A stretch of DNA of 64,000 nt from a virus. Location of the stretch: positions 39,266 through 103,265 of the IMG/VR virus record IMGVR_UViG_3300037164_000059. One strand, given 5' to 3'. Below the pieces are notes generated by a model that was not told the DNA's origin, did no database searches, and was given only the letters and a program-made list of their open reading frames with translations. This document shows, piece by piece, positions 35,330 through 47,999 of this stretch. The position numbers were made by a program, and so were the translations under genes. Numbering within the stretch: position 1 is the stretch's first letter; each line of letters opens with the position of its first letter.

Positions 35330-37297
35330 TTAAAAAACTAATCTTATGCATACTGCGCTTCTATCAACACCATTATATGTATATCTACAATAACCAATTG
35401 AATTTCCTTGTATTGTTTCTGATGATGTGCTACAATTCCATAATGCTAATGAACTTCCTTGTGAACCACCCGGATATTCCCATTGTGCTGAAACAGTATT
35501 ATATTGTTGAACACCTACTAATGGTCTATTAGTTGGTGTACTGAGCCAAGCACATGGAATTTCAAATTTTTGTTTATTTGGACTACTATCTGAAACTAAA
35601 TTCATTTGAACATTATTTGCTGTGGTCATATCTACTAATGATTGTTTAGTTAAAACAGTAATACTTGAAGTTGTTCCAAAAAGAGGATAAACACCTACAA
35701 TTGAACTGTTTGCAGCACTTGTACAACCTGCTGATAGTGCTGTACAATATTGTGTACCTTTACTACCTAAAGCAGGACTACCTGCATCATAACAAGTACA
35801 AACTCCCCAACTTTGTGAACTTATTATAACACTATAACTTGGATTTGTTTGTATTGCAGGTGATGATGCACAACTCTGAAAACCAGAAGGCATTCCACAA
35901 CCAGTAAAACAATATGAAATTGCACAACCACTTCGTTTATCTGAACTACTACAATATTGTGGATTAATACAACCTCTATTAAATGTTCCAGTAACTGTTT
36001 GAGAAAGACTACAACCAATTTCATATAATCCTGAAGCAGTTAATCCAATTCCAATTGAAGGTGCTGTAATTGTACCACATAATTCTGGAACTAAAATTTC
36101 TGCTAATATTTGATTTGCTGTTAAACCTGTTAATGTTGAACCAGCAGGTAAACCACCAACAGTACATACTGAAGGTGAACCATATGTATATTTTTCACTA
36201 CCAGTACCACCACTTGAATATATTACAACTGTACTACCACTTTGAATTACTGTGGTATTACCACTACCTTTAAGACTTCTAAATAATAATGAAGCACCAA
36301 CTTTAGTACTATAAATACCAGTACCAATACCAATATTAGCACCTATTGTTGTACCACCACTACTTGAAGATATGAGAATTGTACCACCATTATTTGTTAC
36401 AGTAGTACCACCTGTTCCAAGAATACTCCTGAATTGTAATGTATTTCCAGTTACACCAGTATAAATACCAATACCAATACCAAGATTTTGACCTCTTGTT
36501 AATGATGAACCTGAAAAATATATAAAGCTATCATCGTTTGTTATTTTAATAACACCCGGATTTTTTGATTTTATTGTTCTAAATCTAAGTTCATTATATC
36601 GTATATTATTAAACACTGGATTACCTACTGTAATTGTTACACCTGTATTTAAACTACCATATGCTGTAACTAAAACAGAACCATTATATGTACTTCCACT
36701 CCATGTTGCATTTGTAAATCCACTACCAGTATATCCAATAATTGGAACATAATTTCCAATATATGAAGTAATATCAACACTACTTAATTGCCATGCATTT
36801 AAACCTTGGTCAAATAACCATGAAACTGTTCTTGCAGAATTTATATATGCACGTCTAAGTGCCCCATGATATGTTGGTGTACCAAGTCTTACAATTCCTG
36901 AACTATCTCTATAATAATTATTATATTCAGAATAATAATTACCAATATATGAACCAAAACCAGCACCACTTAAATTAAGTGTTTGTATACCTGTTTTTCC
37001 GCTAAAAAATCCAATATTTGTTGCACCAGTTATTGCATTAATAATATTAACTGTTCCACCCGTAACTGTTTTTAATATCAAATTACCATCAGCAACACCA
37101 TTTTTAAACCAATAATCAACATTATTAATGTTGACTGTTAATCCAATATATCTTTCACTTGAAGGAATTATTGCAATTACCTCTGTTGTTGCGGAATATG
37201 GCAATGGACTACCACCAACTGTTCTTTCACTTAAATATCGTTTATCAATTGGTGCAGGTGCTGAAACTTTTATATTTGTATTTAATTGTGTTGCCAT
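35330..37297 (-). CDS. Fibre protein with attachment module and Cys-rich GG-domain
   Basis: A 655-residue protein joining two modules. Residues 1-80 (NTNIKVSAPAPIDKRYLSE, SSERYIGLTVNINN, DGNLILK) match the N-terminus of the YadA-like fibre. Residues ~385-500 (VCTVGGLPAGSTLTGLTANQ, ILAEILVPEL, EIGCSLSQTV, RGCINPQYC) match the domain in the 31916 and 37300 genes. Between them lie repeats such as IGIGIYTGVTGNTLQFR and IGTGIYSTKVGASLLFR. The C-terminal third has a cysteine-containing beta domain. It starts three bases after the gene at 37300 ends and is cotranscribed with it. Confidence 0.75.
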   Translation of the reverse strand: MATQLNTNIKVSAPAPIDKRYLSERTVGGSPLPYSATTEVIAIIPSSERYIGLTVNINNVDYWFKNGVADGNLILKTVTGGTVNIINAITGATNIGFFSGKTGIQTLNLSGAGFGSYIGNYYSEYNNYYRDSSGIVRLGTPTYHGALRRAYINSARTVSWLFDQGLNAWQLSSVDITSYIGNYVPIIGYTGSGFTNATWSGSTYNGSVLVTAYGSLNTGVTITVGNPVFNNIRYNELRFRTIKSKNPGVIKITNDDSFIYFSGSSLTRGQNLGIGIGIYTGVTGNTLQFRSILGTGGTTVTNNGGTILISSSSGGTTIGANIGIGTGIYSTKVGASLLFRSLKGSGNTTVIQSGSTVVIYSSGGTGSEKYTYGSPSVCTVGGLPAGSTLTGLTANQILAEILVPELCGTITAPSIGIGLTASGLYEIGCSLSQTVTGTFNRGCINPQYCSSSDKRSGCAISYCFTGCGMPSGFQSCASSPAIQTNPSYSVIISSQSWGVCTCYDAGSPALGSKGTQYCTALSAGCTSAANSSIVGVYPLFGTTSSITVLTKQSLVDMTTANNVQMNLVSDSSPNKQKFEIPCAWLSTPTNRPLVGVQQYNTVSAQWEYPGGSQGSSLALWNCSTSSETIQGNSIGYCRYTYNGVDRSAVCIRLVF

Positions 37298-37299
37298 GT

Positions 37300-38415
37300 T
37301 TAACTATTTTTAAATGTTATATTATAAGGAGTACCACCAGCTATTGTACTTGTTGGATAATTACTAATGTAAAATTTATAATTTACTCCTGACCAACAAG
37401 AACTTGGAGAATTTACTGATACTGTTGTTGGTGCATTAAATAATCCACCCGGTATTGATTCTGTATTTGTTGTTGGTGCATTTGAACCTTCCCACTTAGT
37501 TTTTGTTGTTGATGTTGCGGGAGTTGCAAGCCAAATATATTTGCTTGTAACATTATAATTTACTATGACATTACTACTACTATCAATTACACATTTAGTA
37601 CCTGTTGTAAGTAATGCTGAACCAGCAGTAGGAACACTTACACTATTTCCATAAAAATATGGATATATACCACAAACAACAGCACATGATGAAATTGTAT
37701 CTGCAGAACATGTACAACCTGTCATTAAATTTCCATCACTTTTTGTAGGTGCTATTCCTGCAGTATAATCAACAACACCAAATGCAGTATTATTACCAGA
37801 TGATATTGTTATACTTGGCATTATGCATGTATTAGTTATTCCCGAATATTGATTACCACCCATATCTGTAAAAACATAACAATCAGCAACGCCTGTTCTA
37901 TATTGAGTACCACCACAATATACGGGAAATACACTACCCCTGTCAAAATTTATTGTTCCAGTAAATGCAATACTACAACCTATTTCAAAAATTGTTGTTG
38001 TTGGTGATAATGAAAGTGAACTACTTGGCGATATTAATGTAGGATAAAGTACTGGTGCAACCATCATTTCAATTATACATGATAATTGACAACCTATAAT
38101 AGGAGTATTAATATCTAATCCACCAACAGAACATGTTGTAGGTGATGCACCATTATATATTGTCGAACCACCTGATGCAGATGATTGTGCTAATGATATT
38201 GTTTTTGTAGTATCACAATATGTTAAAACATATCCATCTGTTGAAAATGATGCACCACTTGCAGTAAGTAATACATTAGTTGGAATTGGATTACCATCAG
38301 TAAGTGTTAAACCAGATACAGATGCTATTTGAGTCTGACCTTCTAAGGTTAGTGTACTTCCACTTAATTGCTTAAATTGAGTATTCTCTAAGTTTGGTCT
38401 TGCGAAAAATGGCAT
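37300..38415 (-). CDS. Fibre/adhesin protein of the GG-domain family
   Basis: A 371-residue protein. A short N-terminal shaft (LENTQFKQLSGSTLTLEGQ) is like that of the gene at 31916 (VEQTQNSSLVLSGKTQ). The GG-domain follows (TTCSVGGLDINTPIIGCQ, IIEMMVAPVLYPTLI, FEIGCSIAFT). The C-terminal part ends SCWSGVNYKFYISNYPT, matching VCWSGQSYKVYISNKQT in the 31916 protein. So the two genes are full-length paralogues that have diverged. It is the first fibre-type gene after the homing endonuclease at 38417. Confidence 0.7.
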   Translation of the reverse strand: MPFFARPNLENTQFKQLSGSTLTLEGQTQIASVSGLTLTDGNPIPTNVLLTASGASFSTDGYVLTYCDTTKTISLAQSSASGGSTIYNGASPTTCSVGGLDINTPIIGCQLSCIIEMMVAPVLYPTLISPSSSLSLSPTTTIFEIGCSIAFTGTINFDRGSVFPVYCGGTQYRTGVADCYVFTDMGGNQYSGITNTCIMPSITISSGNNTAFGVVDYTAGIAPTKSDGNLMTGCTCSADTISSCAVVCGIYPYFYGNSVSVPTAGSALLTTGTKCVIDSSSNVIVNYNVTSKYIWLATPATSTTKTKWEGSNAPTTNTESIPGGLFNAPTTVSVNSPSSCWSGVNYKFYISNYPTSTIAGGTPYNITFKNS

Positions 38416-39260: not shown

Positions 39261-39289
39261 AAAACCCGTAAGAATTTCTTACGGGTTTT
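39261..39289 (-). terminator. Rho-independent terminator
   Basis: Perfect stem AAAACCCGTAAGAA / TTCTTACGGGTTTT followed on the minus strand by TTTTTTATTTT. It lies 18 bases after the stop of the ARPP-1-like gene and ends the KilA-N/TROVE operon. Confidence 0.85.
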
Positions 39290-39307: not shown

Positions 39308-40414
39308 TTATAAAGTAAATTTTTCTTGCTTTCTAGCTTTTTTTCTCAATTCGTTAACTTCTCTATAAGCATTAGGGTCAAATTTTTCTCTTTTAACTAT
39401 ACTTACAAGATGATTAAATTCATTTTCAGTAATCACTTGACCAACATAACTATTATTAGTTTCTTTTAAAACATAAGATTTTGGTGCTTTTGCAAAAGTT
39501 GATTGTCCTTCTGTATCAAGAGTTGCATCAAAAGTAAGTTCAAGTAGTTCTTGAATCTTTTCCTGAACATTAGCTGTCATATTCTGTTTTGTTTTCTTTA
39601 ATGCTTTTTCAAGTAAATCAACAATATTTTCTTGATGAGTTTTTTTCATTTCATTATATGTTGAAGTAAATTCTTTTCCAGAACTTTTCTTCTTAATTTC
39701 AGAAATGATAGCCAAAGAACCATAACAGTCACGAATCATCAAATCCCATACCTGTTCAGCATATGTGAATGAAGGAAATTTGTCTATTGCAACAATTTCA
39801 CCATCTATTAAAACAATAATACCAATAAGATTACGTGGACGTTCAAAATGTGCAATAAACTGTTCAAGTTTCTTATCATATTTTTCGAAATATACATTCA
39901 AGTAATTACCTGTACCAGATTGAGTATCACTACCCAATTTCTGAATAGCAGGATAAATTCTTGAATAACCACCTGTTTGTCCAATTGTATCAAATAACAT
40001 TTCACGCATTGATACGGGTATCATACGAAATTCATTAGTTCCACAAAAATAACCTGTTTGTCCACCTTGTACACAACCTGCATCATGATAAGTGGTATTT
40101 GCATATTTTTCCAAATAACCCGCCTTTATCATACCATGATTTTGAGCACTTTGTTTAGTCATAACAGCCATTTGAGTAGGTACAATAACTTCTTTATTTT
40201 CTTTATTAGTAAAACTAATTTGACCATAAGTTTGATTACCTGCTTGAAGCGAAGTTAATGGATTCGCAAATCTAGTATCCAATGAGTTTTCTTCATCAGT
40301 TGTCAATGTTATTATTGACATATTCATAATAGATTGAATAATAATATTTCCATTTGAATCTTTATGTGGTCTACATCCCTTTAAAAGTTCAGTAAATTCT
40401 CTTTGATTATTCAT
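39308..40414 (-). CDS. ARPP-1-like domain protein linked to the TROVE-like gene
   Basis: A 368-residue protein. The N-terminal ~190 residues contain VPTQMAVMTKQSAQNHGM and AGCVQGGQTGYFCGTNEF. Residues ~195-235 read GIIVLIDGEIVAIDKFPSFT and AEQVWDLMIRDCYGSLAI, a pattern like the C-terminal part of ARPP-1 domains (a family named for association with ADP-ribosylglycohydrolase and rhodanese/phosphatase genes). The C-terminal ~130 residues are a charged, helical extension. I know no biochemical activity. It is the last gene of the operon KilA-N, TROVE-like, HNH, ARPP-1-like; its start overlaps the HNH gene by four bases. The family name is tentative. Confidence 0.45.
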   Translation of the reverse strand: MNNQREFTELLKGCRPHKDSNGNIIIQSIMNMSIITLTTDEENSLDTRFANPLTSLQAGNQTYGQISFTNKENKEVIVPTQMAVMTKQSAQNHGMIKAGYLEKYANTTYHDAGCVQGGQTGYFCGTNEFRMIPVSMREMLFDTIGQTGGYSRIYPAIQKLGSDTQSGTGNYLNVYFEKYDKKLEQFIAHFERPRNLIGIIVLIDGEIVAIDKFPSFTYAEQVWDLMIRDCYGSLAIISEIKKKSSGKEFTSTYNEMKKTHQENIVDLLEKALKKTKQNMTANVQEKIQELLELTFDATLDTEGQSTFAKAPKSYVLKETNNSYVGQVITENEFNHLVSIVKREKFDPNAYREVNELRKKARKQEKFTL

Positions 40415-40977
40415 AATTTTTTAATTTTAATGTTATTAATTTTACATTCGTTTAAATATGCCTCATATGCTAATTTTTCATTCGAATATCTACCAATATA
40501 TTTAATCTTTCCATTAATTGTAATTCTACTAACCCAAGGATTAGTTTTATCGTTTGGAGAAAATGAAACTCCAATATAATTAGAACTACTTTTCATTTTC
40601 TGTCTTGCATGATGAGTATTTTCTCTTGCAGTACACCATTCTAAATTATTTAATATATTATCTTTTTTATTACCATTTTTATGATTAATTTGTTTATAAT
40701 TAAATGGATTTAAAAGAAATGCATTTGCTACTAATTTATGTACTAAATATGCTTTATTAATACCTTTCTTACCTAATGAAACCATTAAATATCCACCATT
40801 TATTTGATATGTATTTTTCAATGAACCTTTTAATTTTCGTTTAACACCCATTTTATTTATCACAAATCTATCAACACTTCTTAATCTACCAAAATTACTT
40901 ATTTGATAATATCCTTCATAATCAATAACATCCTTCCATTTTTCAAATAAAAATAATTTTAATTTATCAAGTATCAT
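40411..40977 (-). CDS. HNH homing endonuclease (NUMOD4, HNH, AP2)
   Basis: A 188-residue endonuclease. Residues ~12-60 are a NUMOD4 module (KWKDVIDYEGYYQISNFGRL). Residues ~75-125 are an HNH nuclease (HKLVANAFL, QINHKNGNKKDNILNNLEWC, ENTHHA). The C-terminal ~55 residues are an AP2-like DNA-binding domain (YIGVSFSPNDKTNPW, GRYSNEKLAYEAYL). It sits between the TROVE-like and ARPP-1-like genes without breaking either, overlapping the second by four bases. Confidence 0.9.
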   Translation of the reverse strand: MILDKLKLFLFEKWKDVIDYEGYYQISNFGRLRSVDRFVINKMGVKRKLKGSLKNTYQINGGYLMVSLGKKGINKAYLVHKLVANAFLLNPFNYKQINHKNGNKKDNILNNLEWCTARENTHHARQKMKSSSNYIGVSFSPNDKTNPWVSRITINGKIKYIGRYSNEKLAYEAYLNECKINNIKIKKL

Positions 40978-40985
40978 ACAAATTA

Positions 40986-42620
40986 TTAATCGTTTATATT
41001 AATTTTTTTAATTCTTTTAACAGGTGCTGCTTCAAGAGCCAATACCTGATTTTCCAACCAACGTTTTGTATCAATTTCAAGCAATCTTGCATTGATTTGA
41101 GGCTGTAATGCGACTGGATTATTTATTGCCATTGTGACAACACCTTCACCCAATTTTCTTACATTAGCACCCATTTCAGCACTTGTAATTGGTGATATTT
41201 GGAACATTGGAATATTCCTACCACTTTCTGCTTTCCAAATTGAAATAACTTCATTAGTCAATCCATCATAAGCATTTTCATAACCATCTGTTAAAATAAA
41301 AATTGCATCATATGGTTTTAAAGAATTTTCTTCTTTTAACAAATCAATAAATGATGTTGCCAAATCAGTAATTTCACCTCTAGTATTTACTCTGTTAGAT
41401 TCTTTTGCTGAAGCAGTTAGAACCAATGCAGTAAAATCTGCAATAGCCATTGGTGTATTTTTTGATTCATTTTTATCACCAGTCATAGATACACTTTTAT
41501 CGACAATAACACCAATATTCTGGTAAAAGAATCCCTGAATTTTTTTCTTTTGTGCAAGTTTTACAATTGCTGACCTAATTTCGTCAGTAAAACCATTTTC
41601 ATAACCAGTTTTGTAAAGTGCAAGAAAATCAGTTGCTTTTTCCAAATCAACAGTTTTTTCAACACCCAACTTTGCAGTTGATTTGGTTTGACGAACCTGC
41701 TGATTTACAGAAGTAACTTCAACATTCTTACGAATAAGTGCTTTTGTTGCTTCTTTCTGAATATCAGTTGACCACATTGAATGATATTGTGGATGTTTTA
41801 CACTTGAAATTAAACCAAGTAAAACTTCTTCTGGTACATTTTTAATACCAGTAATATCAATTTTTGCTTTCTGATATTCACTTAAAAGAGGAAATTCAGT
41901 TGCATTATATGCTACGCCACTATCTTTTTTAAATAAAAATAATAACAATTTGAATGCTTTAATTGAATCACCATTGAAATATTTCAATATACATTCATTT
42001 ACAATACTCATTTCTTTTTCACTTCCAAGCAAAGTTGCTCCATTAATATTTATTTGTTTTTGAGCAATTGAAAGTAATATTGATGTTTTCTTAACACCAT
42101 ATGCATGCCTAAGTACTTCAGCAATTTTATTACGATATTTCATTGAATAGAATTCAAGATTTGCTTGACCCCAAATAAAACCAAGCATAATTTTTCTTGT
42201 TCTTTCATTGTTTACTTTTTCATTCTTCAAATCAATGAAAAGACGTAATACATATGGTAAACCATTTTCGCCAAGATTGTTTAATGCAGAAAGTACTGCC
42301 TTATCACTTAAACCATTATCATACCAATCAATTGGATTAACAATATTACATGCTCCACCCCTTAAAGTATTTTTGAATTCATTCAAAAGTACTTCAGAAA
42401 CAAATCTACCAGTAGCTCCTTTTTGACTTGCTATAATCAATGGGAGTTCCTTTGAAAGTTTATACAGGTTCTTTATTTGACCCTGAATTGCTTTCATTTG
42501 TTCGTCTTTACTGTGATAGTAAGTTGCTGAACTTTTACTACCAGATGCAATAGTAAGACCATCAATTAATGATTGCTTAACTGTTGCCAACATTTTCTGT
42601 GTTAATACCAAATTTTCCAT
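40986..42620 (-). CDS. TROVE/Ro60-like protein with C-terminal vWA domain
   Basis: A 544-residue protein starting at the ATG at 42620. Residues ~1-350 are all helical, consistent with HEAT-like repeats of the TROVE domain (LPYVLRLFIDLKNEKV, YRNKIAEVLRHAYGVKK, VPEEVLLGLISSVKH). Residues ~365-535 are a von Willebrand A domain: NIGVIVDKSVSMTG carries the MIDAS DxSxS, and FILTDGYENAYDG the later Asp. Helical ring plus vWA is the layout of Ro60/Rsr, which binds Y RNAs and misfolded RNA. The helical part has no motif I can pin to Ro60, so a related vWA family is possible. A noncoding RNA locus lies 0.9 kb upstream, beyond the KilA-N gene. Confidence 0.5.
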   Translation of the reverse strand: MENLVLTQKMLATVKQSLIDGLTIASGSKSSATYYHSKDEQMKAIQGQIKNLYKLSKELPLIIASQKGATGRFVSEVLLNEFKNTLRGGACNIVNPIDWYDNGLSDKAVLSALNNLGENGLPYVLRLFIDLKNEKVNNERTRKIMLGFIWGQANLEFYSMKYRNKIAEVLRHAYGVKKTSILLSIAQKQININGATLLGSEKEMSIVNECILKYFNGDSIKAFKLLLFLFKKDSGVAYNATEFPLLSEYQKAKIDITGIKNVPEEVLLGLISSVKHPQYHSMWSTDIQKEATKALIRKNVEVTSVNQQVRQTKSTAKLGVEKTVDLEKATDFLALYKTGYENGFTDEIRSAIVKLAQKKKIQGFFYQNIGVIVDKSVSMTGDKNESKNTPMAIADFTALVLTASAKESNRVNTRGEITDLATSFIDLLKEENSLKPYDAIFILTDGYENAYDGLTNEVISIWKAESGRNIPMFQISPITSAEMGANVRKLGEGVVTMAINNPVALQPQINARLLEIDTKRWLENQVLALEAAPVKRIKKININD

Positions 42621-42630
42621 AATATATAAT

Positions 42631-43461
42631 TTATTTATTAAGTGCAAGTTGAATTTTCTTTGATTTTTCAACAAAATCACGTAATCTATTTGTTACATTT
42701 TTACTCATTTCATCAGTAAGATGACCACCCTTTGCCATAAGCATTGTTTCAGCAACTACCGCAATACCTTCTAATATTATTGCTTGGTCATGTTGCATTT
42801 CATCAATCCTCATTTTCAGTTCCAAATAATCCTCAGAAACATTTTGTTCAGGATAAAACGCTTGATTTAACCATTTTAATCCTTCTTCACCAACCATAAT
42901 ACGTTTTATATATTTGTTACTTTCTAATGGTTCGCATGTAAAATAACCTTTATTAATAAATTCTGGAAAAGGTTTATTATGTTCATCAAGAATTCCTCTC
43001 AAACGTAATTGTTCATAAATTTTATATCTTCCGGTCTTACAATTACTATTATTCTTCAAAACATTTGTTGCTTCACTTAAAGAAAAAACAATTTTTCTTA
43101 TTTTTTCTTGTGTTGCAGTAATTCCATATTTGAACAACTCTTTTATTCTGTCATTACACCAAAAATAAAATTCTGGTGAAAGCCACTGTGCAAAAATTAA
43201 AGCAATATCTTCATGTATCCAAGTTCCTTGTGCAGATTTATCATTACCACCCTGCCTAATCATCACTAAATCAGCCGTATTGATATTCTTCAACTCGGCA
43301 TATTTAGCAATAATTCTTTGTGCAGTATCAGTTTTTAACCAAAAATTTGGTTTAACATCAAAAAGATTTGCCATTTCCGTGGCATTTATCATAACATTAC
43401 TGCCTGTGAGAAATGAAATTTCATTTCCTTCAAATTCAAATTTTTTAATTTCTTCTTTCAT
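42631..43461 (-). CDS. KilA-N domain regulator
   Basis: A 276-residue protein. Residues ~1-115 are a KilA-N domain (MINATEMANLF, KPNFWLKTDTAQRI, GTWIHEDIALIFAQWLSPEF), a DNA-binding fold related to APSES factors. The C-terminal half is helical and resembles an antirepressor-type tail (GRYKIYEQLRLRGILDE, EEGLKWLNQAFYPE). It is the first gene of the operon, driven by a host-type promoter at 43514-43544, and ends 11 bases before the TROVE-like gene. An early regulatory role is likely. Confidence 0.85.
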   Translation of the reverse strand: MKEEIKKFEFEGNEISFLTGSNVMINATEMANLFDVKPNFWLKTDTAQRIIAKYAELKNINTADLVMIRQGGNDKSAQGTWIHEDIALIFAQWLSPEFYFWCNDRIKELFKYGITATQEKIRKIVFSLSEATNVLKNNSNCKTGRYKIYEQLRLRGILDEHNKPFPEFINKGYFTCEPLESNKYIKRIMVGEEGLKWLNQAFYPEQNVSEDYLELKMRIDEMQHDQAIILEGIAVVAETMLMAKGGHLTDEMSKNVTNRLRDFVEKSKKIQLALNK

Positions 43462-43513
43462 GATATTTTAAATTGAATTTTTATATTATCAAAATCTAAT
43501 TAATTTTTGATGC

Positions 43514-43544
43514 CAAATATATAAAAAGTTTATTTAAAATCCAA
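43514..43544 (-). promoter_or_regulatory. Bacteroidota-type promoter of the KilA-N operon
   Basis: Minus strand TTG (43544-43542), 20-base spacer, TATATTTG (43521-43514). It is an exact fit to TTG-N19/20-TAnnTTTG, 53 bases before the ATG at 43461. Confidence 0.7.
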
Positions 43545-43570
43545 CTATTATACCAAAAGAATATCAAAAT

Positions 43571-43631
43571 ATTACAAAAAACAAAAAAATGGGCAAGTAT
43601 TGATTAATTTCTTAATCAAATCCCCGCCCAT
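43571..43631 (-). terminator. Terminator of the noncoding RNA locus
   Basis: On the minus strand an outer stem ATGGGC / GCCCAT encloses an inner stem TGATTAA / TTAATCA capped by a GAAA tetraloop. It is followed directly by TTTTTTTGTTTTTTG. It ends transcription from the RNA locus just before the KilA-N promoter. Confidence 0.85.
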
Positions 43632-43663
43632 TTCTATTTTAGAAAAACACTTCTTTCAAATAA

Positions 43664-43757
43664 GAGAAGAAGTTTAGTTGTAATTTGGTAAGTTTGTCCC
43701 CTCTCTCACGAAGGGGATTTCATTTTTACAATTTACTGTATTCACAACAAGTTCTTC
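43664..43757 (-). ncRNA. Structured RNA C, candidate Ro-associated RNA
   Basis: On the minus strand the ends pair (GAAGAA at 43757-43752 with TTCTTC at 43671-43666). Inside are GTGAATACAG (43745-43736), ATTG, an A-rich stretch and a hairpin TCCCCT / AGGGGA (43717-43712 with 43702-43697). The order of elements is the same as in RNA B at 44270-44358. No reading frame of note overlaps it. Expression and processing are inferred. Confidence 0.45.
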
Positions 43758-43869
43758 AGTATTCCTTTTTTAGAAAAAAAAGCACTTCTGCTCGAAAAAC
43801 CATTTTTAACCAATTAAATGTTAGGTGATATAATTTGTTTTTGTAAAAAACTCTGATATCAACAACTAA

Positions 43870-43977
43870 AAACTTGCGGGTTTAATTTGTTATTATTAAC
43901 AACTTTTTACCGCTTTATAACTTAGGGAACAATTTTAAAGTATTTGTTGTTTTTGTTTTGCAAGTTTAACTGACTTG
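43870..43977 (-). ncRNA. Possible structured RNA segment
   Basis: A perfect 8-base long-range pairing AAACTTGC / GCAAGTTT (43967-43960 with 43877-43870) encloses about 80 bases. These include a hairpin TTGTTA / TAACAA at 43887-43902. A competing 5-base stem with a 7-base loop, CAAGT-CAGTTAA-ACTTG, lies at 43961-43977. It is a weak candidate, supported only by pairing. Confidence 0.25.
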
Positions 43978-44009
43978 TGACTTAACCAGCTTGTCTAATT
44001 ATTCAATTT

Positions 44010-44082
44010 TGGCGAATAATGATGGACTCGAACCATCGAAATTACTGTAAACACTTTACGTTTTCCCTTTGTACTATTATGC
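44010..44082 (-). tRNA. tRNA-like RNA with encoded CCA but no normal anticodon loop
   Basis: A 73-base element on the minus strand. GCATAAT at the 5' end pairs with ATTATTC (one mismatch), followed by GCCA. The T arm is perfect (GATGG-TTCGAGT-CCATC). A D-like arm TAC...GTA has GGG in its loop. Between the D and T arms only about 19 bases remain (short by about four), and they do not form a 5-base stem with a 7-base loop; instead they contain GTGTTTACAG. So it is a decayed tRNA or a tRNA mimic rather than a working tRNA. Confidence 0.4.
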
Positions 44083-44106
44083 AATTATATATCGCATTTA
44101 AATTTG

Positions 44107-44243
44107 TGGGGAGAGCAGGATTTGAACCTGCACATCATTGTTTTAACGACAATTGCTTTACCTTTTACTGAAAATACAATCAGTTCTCTCTGTTAAGAGA
44201 GCAGTGAGATAGTATTTTTTGTTTTTTATTTTGCTATCTCCCC
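44107..44243 (-). tRNA. tRNA-like RNA with ~70-base insertion in the D loop
   Basis: On the minus strand GGGGAGA (44243-44237) pairs perfectly with TCTCCCC (44114-44108), followed by A. The T arm is GCAGG-TTCAAAT-CCTGC. The anticodon-like arm is ATTGT-CGTTAAA-ACAAT. GC just after the acceptor and GGTAAAGC before the anticodon arm fit a D arm, but about 70 bases lie between them. These bases hold hairpins (GAGATAG / CTATCTC, CTCTCT / AGAGAG) and the shared element GTATTTTCAG. Position 33 is G instead of T, so the anticodon (GTT or TTA by register) is not certain. Confidence 0.45.
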
Positions 44244-44269
44244 ATATATTTTAAAGAACTTTAAAAATT

Positions 44270-44358
44270 AGAAGAAATTTGTTAGTATTGTTTTTCTGCC
44301 GTCACTCATGGACGGCATACATTATTTTTCAACTGCTGTAAACACTATCAGTTCTTCT
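44270..44358 (-). ncRNA. Structured RNA B, candidate Ro-associated RNA
   Basis: On the minus strand AGAAGAA (44358-44352) pairs perfectly with TTCTTCT (44276-44270). Inside are CTGATAGTGTTTACAGCAG, TTG, an A-rich stretch and a GC-rich hairpin TGCCGTC / GACGGCA (44317-44311 with 44303-44297). A second, overlapping 10-base pairing ACGGCATACA / TGTATGCCGT (44419-44410 with 44321-44312) would extend the structure upstream and compete with the hairpin. It shares its element order with RNA C. Confidence 0.45.
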
Positions 44359-44435
44359 CATTTTGATTAAGTTGGCGCAGTCTTCTTTTGTGACTTACTT
44401 TCAACGGAGTGTATGCCGTGACCTCTTAATCTTTG

Positions 44436-44507
44436 TAGCGGGAGAGGGACTTGAACCCCCGACCTTTTGGTTATGAGCCAAACGAGATGCCTCTTCTCCA
44501 CCCCGCA
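44436..44507 (-). tRNA. tRNA-Met (CAT)
   Basis: On the minus strand: acceptor TGCGGGG with TCCCGCT (six pairs, one mismatch at the first), anticodon arm TTTGG-CTCATAA-CCAAA, T arm GGGGG-TTCAAGT-CCCTC with a small mismatch, discriminator A. CCA is not encoded. CAT could also be an Ile tRNA with a modified C. It is the first RNA after the host-type promoter at 44555-44586. Confidence 0.85.
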
Positions 44508-44554
44508 ATATACTTTTTAATCTTTTTAAAGAACGTTATATCATTTTGACGATG

Positions 44555-44586
44555 CAAATCTATAACACATTTTTTAATTGTGCAAG
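44555..44586 (-). promoter_or_regulatory. Bacteroidota-type promoter of the noncoding RNA locus
   Basis: Minus strand CTTG (44586-44583), 20-base spacer, TAGATTTG (44562-44555). It lies 48 bases before the tRNA-Met and drives the whole RNA locus toward the terminator at 43571-43631. A GTATTTATT motif lies further upstream at 44630-44638. Confidence 0.7.
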
Positions 44587-44678: not shown

Positions 44679-47600
44679 TTAATCATCTTTTATAACTCTC
44701 TGATTTTGACGTGCTTTATTTAAAATATTAAATACATTTTTTTCATTTTCTTGTGGCTCATCAGGGTCAATTAATAATTTATTTTCCAATTCTTTTATAT
44801 TAATATTTTTATTTGTTCTTTCAATTAATGGTTTTATTGTTAAATTTTCTTCTTTAATCTCACGATTTTTTTCAACAATATTATTATCAATTTCTTTAAC
44901 AAAAACTCCCGGTGGAACAAATTTAGTTAAATCTAATGATTTTTTAATATCTTCTAATTTTACTTCTGGTTGATTAATAATTTCATTAATTGTACTACCT
45001 GATTCACCATTCCATTCAAATGGTTCTTTTTTTTCATCCCTTTTTATTTGTTCTTCATGAAATATTACTTCAGGATGAATTATTTCTTCATTTAATTCTT
45101 CAACCACACCATTAATTTCCAGTATTGCTTCGTTGGCAATATCAATTATTTGTTTAATTTCATTTTGATTTAAATCTATTCTTGTAGTACTAATATGAAT
45201 ATTTTCTATTTGTTTAACAGGAACACCATGTATCTCACCTTCAATCTCTCTTCTCATTTGTTCAATAAAATCACTACTTTCAGCTTTAATCGGTTCGGTC
45301 TTAACAATAGGTTCTTCTTTTTTTACAATAGGTTCGTCAGTATTTGTTTTTATTACAGTTTCATTTTCTTTTACTGTATTTTGTTCAATTTCAAATTCAG
45401 AATTGTTTTGCAATAATCTATTAATTTCAGTAGAAGATAAATTTACAACATCAACAGCATTTTTAGAATCTTCAGCAAGTTGACTAACAACAACATGCAT
45501 TTTATTTGCAGTACTTTCAACTTTATTTACATCATTTTCATCGTAATGTTTCAGTTTATTCTTTACAGGATATTTTGAGTCAGTTATAATAATTTGCATT
45601 GTATCATTATTAAAAATACAATCTTCAAATGTTTGTCCATCTTTTGCAAATCTTGCTTTAAGAATACTAATATTAGCAAAATTTGCATCTTGTTGTGCTG
45701 GTGTTTTAGCAACTGACATAAAAAAATGTGCTTTTTGAATTCTTTTAATATTGCCACCTGTTTGTTGTGCTCCAACAATTGCAGCACCAAAACCAGAACG
45801 ATTAGTTTGAATTGCTGACCATGCAGGTATATCAAAATCTGAAGCAAGTGCTTCAAAAGATTTTACTATTTGTAATTCAGCTTCATTTCTATCTGGTGAT
45901 TTTTTATGAGATTCAAGGCAATCAAGATAATCTATTACAAGTATATCAAATTTAAAACCATATTTTTTTTGATATCCTATCATCCAATTTTTAATATCCA
46001 ACATTGTAGTATTTTCCTGACTAAATTGTTTAATCAAAAGTCTACCTTTTCCTTCTAATGATTCTGCTTTTTCTGTTGCAATTTTAAAAACTCTTGCATT
46101 TTCATCCTCATCATCAAGTTTACTTAATGCAGATTTTGCCCAAATAGTATAATGTTTACGTTTAATCTGTTCTTTTGTATCTTCAATTATAATTTGTGCA
46201 ACATTTTTTTCTTGTTCATAAGCAGTATTAGCAATAATTGTAAGTGCAGTAGTATTATGTGTTAAAATATAATCATCAATTATATATAAATGGTCATTAT
46301 TTTCAACATATATACATGTTGCATCTTCTTCATGTGAATATTCAATATTTTTTATAAATTTATTATATTCATATTTATCACGAATTACAATTCTATCAAG
46401 TTTGGTAGGTAAAGTACATGGTTTAATACCATTGTTTGGAAAACTTATGGTTAAACAATAATTTTTTTTACCTAAAACTTTTACACCATTTTTATTATAC
46501 GATTTAATTTTTTCGTTAATTCTACATGTTCCACCCAATGATAATACTAATTCTCGAACATTTTTTGATAATTCTTTTGAAACTGTAGAATAAATAATTG
46601 AATGATTTTTACCAACACCACCATCTGAATCAATTAAACCTTGTAATAATTTTTCTCTATATTCGATACAATTATATAAATAAATATTAGGAATAAATTT
46701 ATTAGTTGAATCAGTACCATATAAATTAAGTTCTGTTTCTAAAACATTTCTCGAATTTATTAATGATATTCGATATAATTTTTTATAATTTTCTTTTCTT
46801 CCTTCATATTCATGAACAATAACATTTTTTTCAAGATTACATATTTTATCAACAATAAATAAATCTGATGTTATAATGTGTGGTTGATTTTTTCTTGTTA
46901 AACATCCATCACCCAATAATACCCCCATTATATAAGGGTCAATTTTAACCTCTAATTTATTAAATTGAATTGGTAATACATTAGGTAATCTATAATTTAA
47001 ATTATTTTTTATTTTAATATCTTCCATAATTTCAGACGTTTTTAATATCTGAAATGTATGGTCAGGAATACTTAATGTTTTACCATTTATATTAGTTTTT
47101 TGATTTCTTTGTTTAAATGAATTAACTGCCCATAAATGTTCTACATCACAATAAGATATTGTTTGGTCTGAAAAAGTAACTTTATATATTTTTCTTTTAC
47201 CTTGTGGATATACTGCTAATATTTTTTGTTTTTTTCCGTCACTACCAAAAATATAATCATTAACTTTTAATGTACCATTTTCAACCCAACCATTTGGTGT
47301 TAATACTTTATGGCTATTTGGCAAGGCTTTTCCTACACCTGATGGTGTTAATATTAAACCAATTTCACCTTTACCAAGACCACCACCAGTCAATGAATCT
47401 ATTACACCAATTCCAGTAGGTATTGGTTGTCTAAATTCTTTTCTTAATGCTTTTTCAATACCTTCTATTACTTCTTCACAATCATCTTCATCCTCACCAA
47501 TATGTGTAATTTTTTGAAATTTTTCTTCAATTGCTGCAATAACATATTTACTTTTAATTTCACCATTTTTTACTTTATCAATAATACCTTCAGCTAATTT

Positions 47601-47999
47601 ACGATATTCTTGTTGTTTAATAAAAGAATTTGTAGATTTTTGTATAACATCTCCATCATAAAGCATTTGTTTATTAATAATTCTTTCATTCCAAAGTTCA
47701 ATACGTTTAATTACAGCAAATAATGATTCTTCTTCAATTACATTATTTGGAGTTTTATATTTATTAATTGCTTGATGAATACTTTGATTTTGAAGATTTG
47801 GAACTTTCTGAAATTCTTTAAAATATTCTAAAATAATTAAAAATAATCTTCTAAGATTTGGGTCATCAAAATATTCAATTGCTATATCTGGAATTATTTT
47901 TTCTGCAAACTCTGGTTCAACTAACAACTGCCACATAAGATGTTGTTGAAATTCAGGACCTAAATATGATGATAATGTATTTTCTGTTATATCTGCCAT
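44679..47999 (-). CDS. 41: Replicative DnaB-like helicase (T4 gp41-like) with intein
   Basis: A 1106-residue precursor. Residues 1-224 hold the N-terminal helical domain and the start of the RecA-like core (IPTGIGVIDSLTGGGLGKGE, LTPSGVGK). Residues 225-582 are an intein that interrupts the P-loop. The host protein resumes TTALTIIANTAY, restoring GVGKTT. Later motifs are ILVIDYLDCL (Walker B), QTNRSGFG and KARFAKDGQT. The C-terminal ~250 residues are acidic, low in complexity and not part of the helicase core. The spliced product (748 residues) is longer than T4 gp41 (475) because of this tail. It unwinds the fork with gp43 and gp32. Confidence 0.92.
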   Translation of the reverse strand: MADITENTLSSYLGPEFQQHLMWQLLVEPEFAEKIIPDIAIEYFDDPNLRRLFLIILEYFKEFQKVPNLQNQSIHQAINKYKTPNNVIEEESLFAVIKRIELWNERIINKQMLYDGDVIQKSTNSFIKQQEYRKLAEGIIDKVKNGEIKSKYVIAAIEEKFQKITHIGEDEDDCEEVIEGIEKALRKEFRQPIPTGIGVIDSLTGGGLGKGEIGLILTPSGVGKALPNSHKVLTPNGWVENGTLKVNDYIFGSDGKKQKILAVYPQGKRKIYKVTFSDQTISYCDVEHLWAVNSFKQRNQKTNINGKTLSIPDHTFQILKTSEIMEDIKIKNNLNYRLPNVLPIQFNKLEVKIDPYIMGVLLGDGCLTRKNQPHIITSDLFIVDKICNLEKNVIVHEYEGRKENYKKLYRISLINSRNVLETELNLYGTDSTNKFIPNIYLYNCIEYREKLLQGLIDSDGGVGKNHSIIYSTVSKELSKNVRELVLSLGGTCRINEKIKSYNKNGVKVLGKKNYCLTISFPNNGIKPCTLPTKLDRIVIRDKYEYNKFIKNIEYSHEEDATCIYVENNDHLYIIDDYILTHNTTALTIIANTAYEQEKNVAQIIIEDTKEQIKRKHYTIWAKSALSKLDDEDENARVFKIATEKAESLEGKGRLLIKQFSQENTTMLDIKNWMIGYQKKYGFKFDILVIDYLDCLESHKKSPDRNEAELQIVKSFEALASDFDIPAWSAIQTNRSGFGAAIVGAQQTGGNIKRIQKAHFFMSVAKTPAQQDANFANISILKARFAKDGQTFEDCIFNNDTMQIIITDSKYPVKNKLKHYDENDVNKVESTANKMHVVVSQLAEDSKNAVDVVNLSSTEINRLLQNNSEFEIEQNTVKENETVIKTNTDEPIVKKEEPIVKTEPIKAESSDFIEQMRREIEGEIHGVPVKQIENIHISTTRIDLNQNEIKQIIDIANEAILEINGVVEELNEEIIHPEVIFHEEQIKRDEKKEPFEWNGESGSTINEIINQPEVKLEDIKKSLDLTKFVPPGVFVKEIDNNIVEKNREIKEENLTIKPLIERTNKNINIKELENKLLIDPDEPQENEKNVFNILNKARQNQRVIKDD
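46254..47327 (-). mobile_element. Class 3 intein with LAGLIDADG domain in the gp41 P-loop
   Basis: A 358-residue intein from Ala (residue 225 of the precursor, ALPNSHKVLTPNGW) to HN before Thr+1 (YILTHN-TT). The first residue is Ala, not Cys or Ser. The block B Trp (EHLW), block F Cys (TCIYVENNDHLY) and block G Thr (ILTHN) form the WCT triad of class 3 inteins, which start splicing from the block F Cys. Two LAGLIDADG helices (YIMGVLLGDGCLT and LLQGLIDSDGGVG) make it a mobile element. Confidence 0.88.

Follow-up and report, generated by a model that had tools for sequence, protein, structure and literature searches.

Introduction

In the nearest bacterial precedent, the basal stem of the Y RNA YrlA binds the Ro60-type protein Rsr and its tRNA-like domain binds the exonuclease PNPase (PMC8394870, PMC7790460, in their accessible parts); the same domain has been suggested as a possible competitive inhibitor of anticodon nuclease (accessible part of PMC7790460). 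Phage Ro60/TROVE proteins are also known already, from a Thermus phage phiLo structure (PDB 9l5y) and from jumbo phages, a small subset of which is said to carry a ROT/TROVE protein (PMC7824862), ORF (open reading frame) 64 of Vibrio phage pir03 being one example (PMC7765460). In the accessible parts of these two papers, a tRNA-like partner is mentioned for cellular systems (PMC7824862), and the phage descriptions contain no RNA array or RNA topologies like the present ones. Here we analyze 64,000 nucleotides (nt), hereafter the window, of the IMG/VR virus record IMGVR_UViG_3300037164_000059 (positions 39,266 to 103,265), in which a gene for a Ro60-like protein lies close to an array of small structured RNAs, two of them tRNA-shaped. 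This locus probably encodes a phage Ro60–Y RNA particle.

The Ro60-Like Protein

40986-42620, minus strand: Ro60-like gene, 544 residues from ATG, with helical repeats and a vWA domain bearing a metal ion-dependent adhesion site (MIDAS)

The preliminary description, drawn up from the letters of the window, had read this gene as having the Ro60 layout of helical repeats followed by a MIDAS-bearing vWA domain, and had proposed a structural comparison with Ro60; the layout was borne out and the comparison was positive. An N-terminal helical part precedes the vWA domain, whose MIDAS residues are D374, S376, S378, T418, and D445. In an alignment of 19 diverse members, D374, S376, S378, and D445 were unchanged in all 19, and position 418 was T or S. 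The window belongs to a viral record of 103,265 bases, and a protein 100% identical to this one occurs in further contigs, one of them 348,923 bases long.

An AlphaFold2 model was predicted from an alignment of 40 relatives. Compared with the PDB by Foldseek, it gave 13 matches at E ≤ 1e-3, all of them Ro60/Rsr/TROVE chains spanning approximately residues 16-516, the best at 1e-6, and the first non-Ro60 fold appeared only at 7.7e-3. The ten best structural alignments were likewise all to Ro60/Rsr/TROVE (Z 15.1-12.7, 397-408 residues, root-mean-square deviation 5.1-5.9, 12-15% identity) and the subsequent rows were vWA-only (116-163 residues); since a Z near 14 is attainable by chance for mostly helical models, the weight rests on the unbroken one-family list and on the coverage of two domains. 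Among viral structure models, one of the five matches at E ≤ 1e-3 carries a TROVE name. The protein resembles the known structures (PDB 1yvp, 2i91, 2nvo; 9l5y from phage phiLo) in its helical repeats followed by a MIDAS vWA, over about 400 aligned residues, and in the position of its gene next to Y RNA-like genes; it differs in its low identity, in being unseen by the TROVE profile PF05731 and in being paired with ARPP-1.

The predicted model thus contains the helical-repeat ring with C-terminal vWA of Ro60/TROVE proteins, and the MIDAS metal site is in place. Because PF05731 is silent, we call the protein Ro60-like by fold and not a member of PF05731. When 18 relatives' records were searched with this profile, two were matched, neither at the gene of the Ro60-like family, and searches of PHROGs, PADLOC, Pfam, and PDB sequences with the protein returned nothing convincing. 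Judged by its modeled fold, this is a Ro60-like clade overlooked by the standard TROVE profile.

The RNA Array

The noncoding array sits between a dnaB gene (44679-47999) and a KilA-N gene (42631-43461). Its RNAs were assigned with covariance models trained on close relatives, R1 for type B, R2 for type A and R3 for type C, together with alignments and predicted folds:

44555-44585, minus strand: putative Bacteroidota-type promoter of the array, TTG-N20-TAGATTTG (pattern TTG-N20-TAnnTTTG)
44435-44507, minus strand: tRNA-Met (CAT), first RNA of the array
44270-44358, minus strand: D1, headless stem-loop on the shared two-part stem (R1 30.7 bits, E 0.0024; 22 sequences aligned)
44104-44243, minus strand: type C RNA (153 bits, E 6.8e-33; window copy in training set)
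43925-44067, minus strand: type B RNA (R1 152.3 bits, E 1.6e-28; window copy in training set)
43666-43757, minus strand: D2, stem-loop on the shared stem (alignment of 19 and predicted fold)
about 43580-43631, minus strand: terminator-like hairpin and T run at the array end (predicted fold)

The preliminary description had placed here, between a host-type promoter and a terminator, a tRNA-Met, two tRNA-like RNAs and two similar structured RNAs. All five RNAs were found: the tRNA-like ones are the type C and type B RNAs (153 and 152 bits), and the two similar ones are D1 and D2. The promoter claim held as well: the pattern, which we take to be the Bacteroidota consensus, lies at 44585-44555; 22 of the 26 relatives tested have it too, no more than 330 nt ahead of their type A RNA, where single-base shuffles give an expectation of 0.66. 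As to the terminator, the fold contains a strong minus-strand hairpin with a T run at about 43620-43580, but a simple terminator scan did not report that site and listed two other sites, on the plus strand. A tRNA-Met is present in 37 of the 46 relatives scanned. The covariance models found no type A RNA in the window, and an Rfam scan of the window gave nothing beyond tRNA. About 170 nt between the type B RNA and D2 (43758-43924, minus strand), inside the array, carry no assigned RNA type.

Types B and C, D1 and D2 have one two-part stem in common, consisting of a lower helix, an asymmetric internal loop with AACT on its 5′ side, and an upper helix followed by CAG. Upon this stem the relatives display three arrangements of a tRNA. 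In type A, an outer stem closes a full, unpermuted cloverleaf; type B is a circular permutation in the order stem, T arm, acceptor hairpin, D arm, anticodon arm, stem; in type C, a tRNA shape carries the shared stem inside its D loop. D1 and D2 are plain stem-loops.

The pairing of all three tRNA-shaped types is strongly supported by covariation. The type A alignment (26 of 52 pattern hits, leaving out type B, distant ones and the copies in loci L130/L131) had 95.9% of cells paired over 36 pairs, with 87 two-sided changes against 18.0 ± 5.7 in shuffles. For type B (42 of 43 pattern hits, one near-identical copy left out) the corresponding figures were 98.5% over 34 pairs and 222 against 62.7 ± 7.0, with two-sided change at every one of the seven acceptor and five anticodon-stem pairs; for type C (29 of 49 pattern hits, leaving out two that were type A, besides variants, distant sequences and extra copies) they were 96.5% over 34 pairs and 97 against 26.9 ± 4.7. 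None of 500 shuffles reached the paired-cell and two-sided-change values of any type, and controls with the structure slid along the alignment paired just 38-56% of cells; shuffles ignore the kinship of the sequences, which the slid controls preserve. Chance folding as the source of these structures was rejected on both controls. Type C also has an alternative helix, mutually exclusive with the first fold, in which the 5′ acceptor strand pairs with the region of the 5′ side of the inserted stem (94.1% of cells paired; seven two-sided changes against 1.2 ± 1.0), and this RNA may therefore switch between two folds, or transit one of them during transcription.

Distribution of the RNAs among Relatives

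The search covered 59 sources. Of these, 37 are close, some of them nearly duplicated (for example L029 and L034, or L130 and L131), and the other 22 are distant or come from metagenome-assembled genomes (MAGs). As the models were built from close relatives, matches there are expected by construction: type B reached at least 60 bits in 34 of the 37, type A at least 58 bits over the full model in 32 (R2 matches of tRNA length score up to 57 bits) and type C at least 55 bits in 33. Among the 22 distant or MAG loci, all outside the training sets, the same thresholds were passed by type B in four, type A in 13 and type C in five, so that 14 carry at least one of these RNAs; stem sequences differ there, in most cases still pairing. 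Three of the 13 with type A (L089, L090, L096) have minimum-energy folds with the lower and without the upper helix.

The RNAs are also tied to the gene by position. In 18 viral records (about 115-429 kb, given without a statement of completeness), all 13 type B matches of at least 60 bits and all 17 type C matches of at least 55 bits fell in the locus of the Ro60-like gene, among the candidates scored, at most 150 per record. Within the same candidates, matches outside the locus were weaker, up to 48 bits for R1 and 53 bits for R3. Off-array R1 matches of full model length scored 32-48 bits, and the three inspected all overlap ordinary tRNA genes called by ARAGORN, two being tandem pairs. A 58-bit type B match in L095 was missing from the record scan, and the absence of strong matches elsewhere consequently holds only among candidates scored.

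Relation to YrlA and Bacterial Y RNAs

Type B shares with YrlA (Rfam RF02553) a two-part basal stem, T arm, acceptor hairpin, UA and D arm, and adjoins a Ro60-type gene. A basal stem formed from both RNA ends with an internal loop is found in types A and B, the stem of type C being internal, and the permuted order of T arm, acceptor hairpin, and D arm is found in type B only. The phage locus differs in having several RNAs, of which types A and C have other topologies, the D types are headless and type B adds an anticodon arm. L097 has a type B RNA to which RF02553 could be aligned at 26.6 bits, with E 0.18 when 61 kb were searched and 4.5e-4 for that stretch by itself; this is below the gathering score of 69, and the four other loci searched together with L097 gave no match.

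The bacterial control came from the Bacteroidota, the phylum of L080, a Chitinophagales MAG, where the Pfam profile found TROVE genes in 20 of 296 genomes; 12 loci of this set and L150 were searched. RF02553 matched 11 of these 13 bacterial TROVE loci at E ≤ 1, all with 24-40 bits and under the gathering score, which means that the cut-off does not discriminate here. Phage model R1 matched seven of the 13 at E ≤ 0.012, mostly across the permuted core. The clearest bacterial YrlA-like folds (L152, L157, L163) have T arm, acceptor hairpin, and D arm and no anticodon arm; type B is therefore the YrlA topology with an anticodon arm added, and A and C are other topologies. The link to YrlA drawn in the preliminary description accordingly stands in the topology of type B, in the L097 alignment and in the bacterial TROVE loci matched by R1; as a covariance match of the window, or of the strong type B RNA of L008, it failed.

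Two further observations concern the bacterial loci themselves. YrlA-like RNAs near TROVE genes in L152-L163 score below the Rfam gathering cut-off, and annotation would miss such RNAs for that reason. Flavo-1 (RF01705) matches lie at L160:698-779 and L150:2526-2615 and 2736-2822, in 3.3-kb loci around TROVE genes.

Weight of the Evidence

A number of results speak against a Ro60–Y RNA particle, in addition to the chance level of Z mentioned above. The protein model is good, not excellent (predicted local distance difference test, pLDDT, 79.8; predicted TM-score, pTM, 0.70), and Foldseek TM-scores over the whole query were 0.30-0.44. PF05731 had no match at E ≤ 10 in the viral record of the window and matched none of 19 Ro60-like family members; profile-profile comparison with 11 real TROVE proteins was weak (E 0.009 and 0.008, probability 4-5%), with the MIDAS in register. 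On the RNA side, RF02553 had no match at E ≤ 10 in the window, none in its record, and none at E ≤ 5 in L008 despite the strong type B there; the L097 alignment spans the T-acceptor-D core, but the YrlA basal stem is deleted in part and otherwise falls on the anticodon arm. In type C, 101 of 500 shuffles matched the number of additional pair types, and in type A RNAalifold, run unaided, missed the acceptor stem while recovering the outer stem as well as the D, T, and anticodon arms. Eight of the 22 distant loci (L078, L080-L083, L085, L086, L088) have no clear RNA, the sequence of L080 covering just about 0.6 kb upstream of the gene.

Set against these are the predicted protein fold, the covarying architecture of the RNAs, their position next to the gene and the promoter pattern, all of which the analysis shows. 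From them we judge, with a probability of roughly 0.8, that the locus encodes a phage Ro60–Y RNA particle in which the protein would bind the shared stem. This supports the preliminary description, which had proposed a phage-encoded Ro ribonucleoprotein that may steer host RNA decay.

Gene Neighborhood and the ARPP-1 Partner

39308-40414, minus strand: ARPP-1 (PF20208) gene, Pfam E 9.4e-12
40411-40977, minus strand: HNH/NUMOD4 homing endonuclease gene, between the Ro60-like and ARPP-1 genes (Pfam, and BLAST across loci)
42631-43461, minus strand: KilA-N gene, between the RNA array and the Ro60-like gene (PF04383, E 1.4e-19)

Leaving out 15 incomplete loci and identical proteins, ARPP-1 follows the Ro60-like gene within 900 nt in 60 of the 62 distinct loci that extend 700 nt past it, and in 49 of these 60 its frame, from stop to stop, starts no more than 30 nt from the end of the Ro60-like gene. 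Only L085 and L086 depart from this; both are bacterial MAG contigs, with a distant Ro60-like gene that is accompanied by neither ARPP-1 nor a clear RNA array. One cysteine column is invariant in the 60 ARPP-1 copies and several glutamine columns are kept in 56-59. According to PMC9503650, ARPP is probably an enzyme, in which a cysteine and a glutamine are conserved and for which action on ribose is proposed; in the accessible main text of that paper the terms TROVE and Ro60 do not occur.

In the window the HNH gene (40411-40977, minus strand) separates the Ro60-like gene from ARPP-1, a gap that is at most 30 nt in the 49 loci just mentioned. The KilA-N gene, absent from the preliminary account of the locus, was rejected as a fixed component of the system, a BLAST homologue being present in only 19 of 149 loci, duplicates included. 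Farther away, the DnaB-type helicase gene (44679-47999, minus strand) contains an in-frame insertion with a LAGLIDADG/homing endonuclease match, probably an intein, and at 35330-38415 (minus strand) lie two long ORFs that are rich in Gly, Ser, and Thr, contain many cysteines and may encode surface or tail proteins.

Possible Function and Alternative Explanations

Counted from 17-nt anticodon arms, available in 26 of 26 type A, 42 of 42 type B, and 27 of 29 type C RNAs, the type A loop keeps U33 in 23 of 26, A37 in 25 and A38 in 25, and its positions 34-36 show 18 different triplets at one syntenic position, stop-type TTA and TCA among them. Among the 42 type B RNAs there are 14 triplets, and U33 is kept in 28, A37 in 36, A38 in 39. 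Type C mostly carries TGA (19 of 27). Constancy of the loop around a freely varying triplet speaks against decoding of a single codon, and fits either a decoy with changing targets or an irrelevant triplet. The acceptor end is shut by the stem in type A or by a loop in type B; NCCA follows the acceptor strand in 27 of 42 type B and 4 of 29 type C RNAs, and eight of the 15 type B RNAs that lack it close the acceptor stem with a loop of at most 5 nt. The constant anticodon and open acceptor with CCA of a functional tRNA are thus not what these RNAs present.

In the mechanism we favor, the host-type promoter would drive an array of small RNAs built on one two-part stem, by which the ring-shaped Ro60-like protein would grip them, and the tRNA-shaped head at the opposite end would offer a host factor the surface of a tRNA. 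The heads would mimic tRNAs, anticodon loop included, and occupy host enzymes that recognize, modify or cut tRNAs, and ARPP-1 would act in the same pathway. Such a decoy function, sequestering host tRNA-acting enzymes, is put forward tentatively; it has against it that the free triplet may simply be unconstrained. Its full form is a speculative one, in which a Ro60-stem cassette would have been grafted on a tRNA at the acceptor end, the variable loop and the D loop, giving a set of decoys with changeable anticodons that, with the phage Ro60 ring and ARPP-1 as enzymatic partner, would serve as counter-defence against host tRNA-cutting systems.

A close rival, doubtful yet far from negligible, is an arrangement like the RYPER of Deinococcus, in which the Y RNAs would tether the Ro60-like protein to a host 3′-5′ exonuclease, e.g., PNPase, redirected to structured host RNA, with the anticodon merely structural. 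This is the closest known precedent, YrlA joining Rsr by its stem and PNPase by its tRNA-like domain (PMC8394870, PMC7790460, accessible parts), and type B has the topology of the YrlA of RYPER. However, the clearest bacterial YrlA-like folds lack the anticodon arm that phage types A, B, and C all have, the anticodon loop frame of type A is canonical, and a single tether needs no multiple heads of differing topology per phage. Since the anticodon arm is what a decoy for anticodon nuclease needs, and is present in the phage RNAs, sequestration is preferred over the exonuclease tether.

In a far less probable reading, the protein would join a vWA domain to an unrelated helical one, and the RNAs would serve some other phage process such as regulation of the neighboring replication genes. 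The missing TROVE profile match and the weak profile-profile score would suit this reading, but the alignment to Ro60 runs over both domains (397-408 residues, against 116-163 in the vWA-only rows) and a type B RNA of YrlA topology stands beside the gene. Least probable, and rejected, is a role in translation, next to an unrelated Ro60-like gene, for the tRNA-shaped RNAs as genuine phage tRNAs, some of them permuted and processed afterwards: phages frequently carry tRNAs, in 25 of the 46 relatives ARAGORN calls one where type A lies, and the 27 type B RNAs with NCCA have what a processed permuted tRNA requires, but the triplets vary among syntenic type A RNAs, acceptor ends are closed, NCCA is lacking in 15 of 42 type B and 25 of 29 type C RNAs, the outer stem covaries in types A and B, and among candidates scored strong matches occur nowhere else in the 18 records.

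Biological Significance

In the literature searched, which left most subscription papers outside its scope, no description of these RNAs was found. As far as these searches can tell, the new elements are a Ro60-like clade that escapes the TROVE profile, the association of this clade with ARPP-1, and a Y RNA-like array with three tRNA topologies and variable anticodons. Large bacterial viruses of this family carry a Ro60-like gene of their own beside small tRNA-shaped RNAs, together probably an RNA–protein machine that may manipulate or decoy host RNA-cutting enzymes. The family offers many natural variants of one design, with the same stem, three tRNA topologies, changing anticodons and a fixed partner gene, through which the partner of the stem, the purpose of the head and the mimicry of tRNAs against tRNA-cleaving defences become testable.

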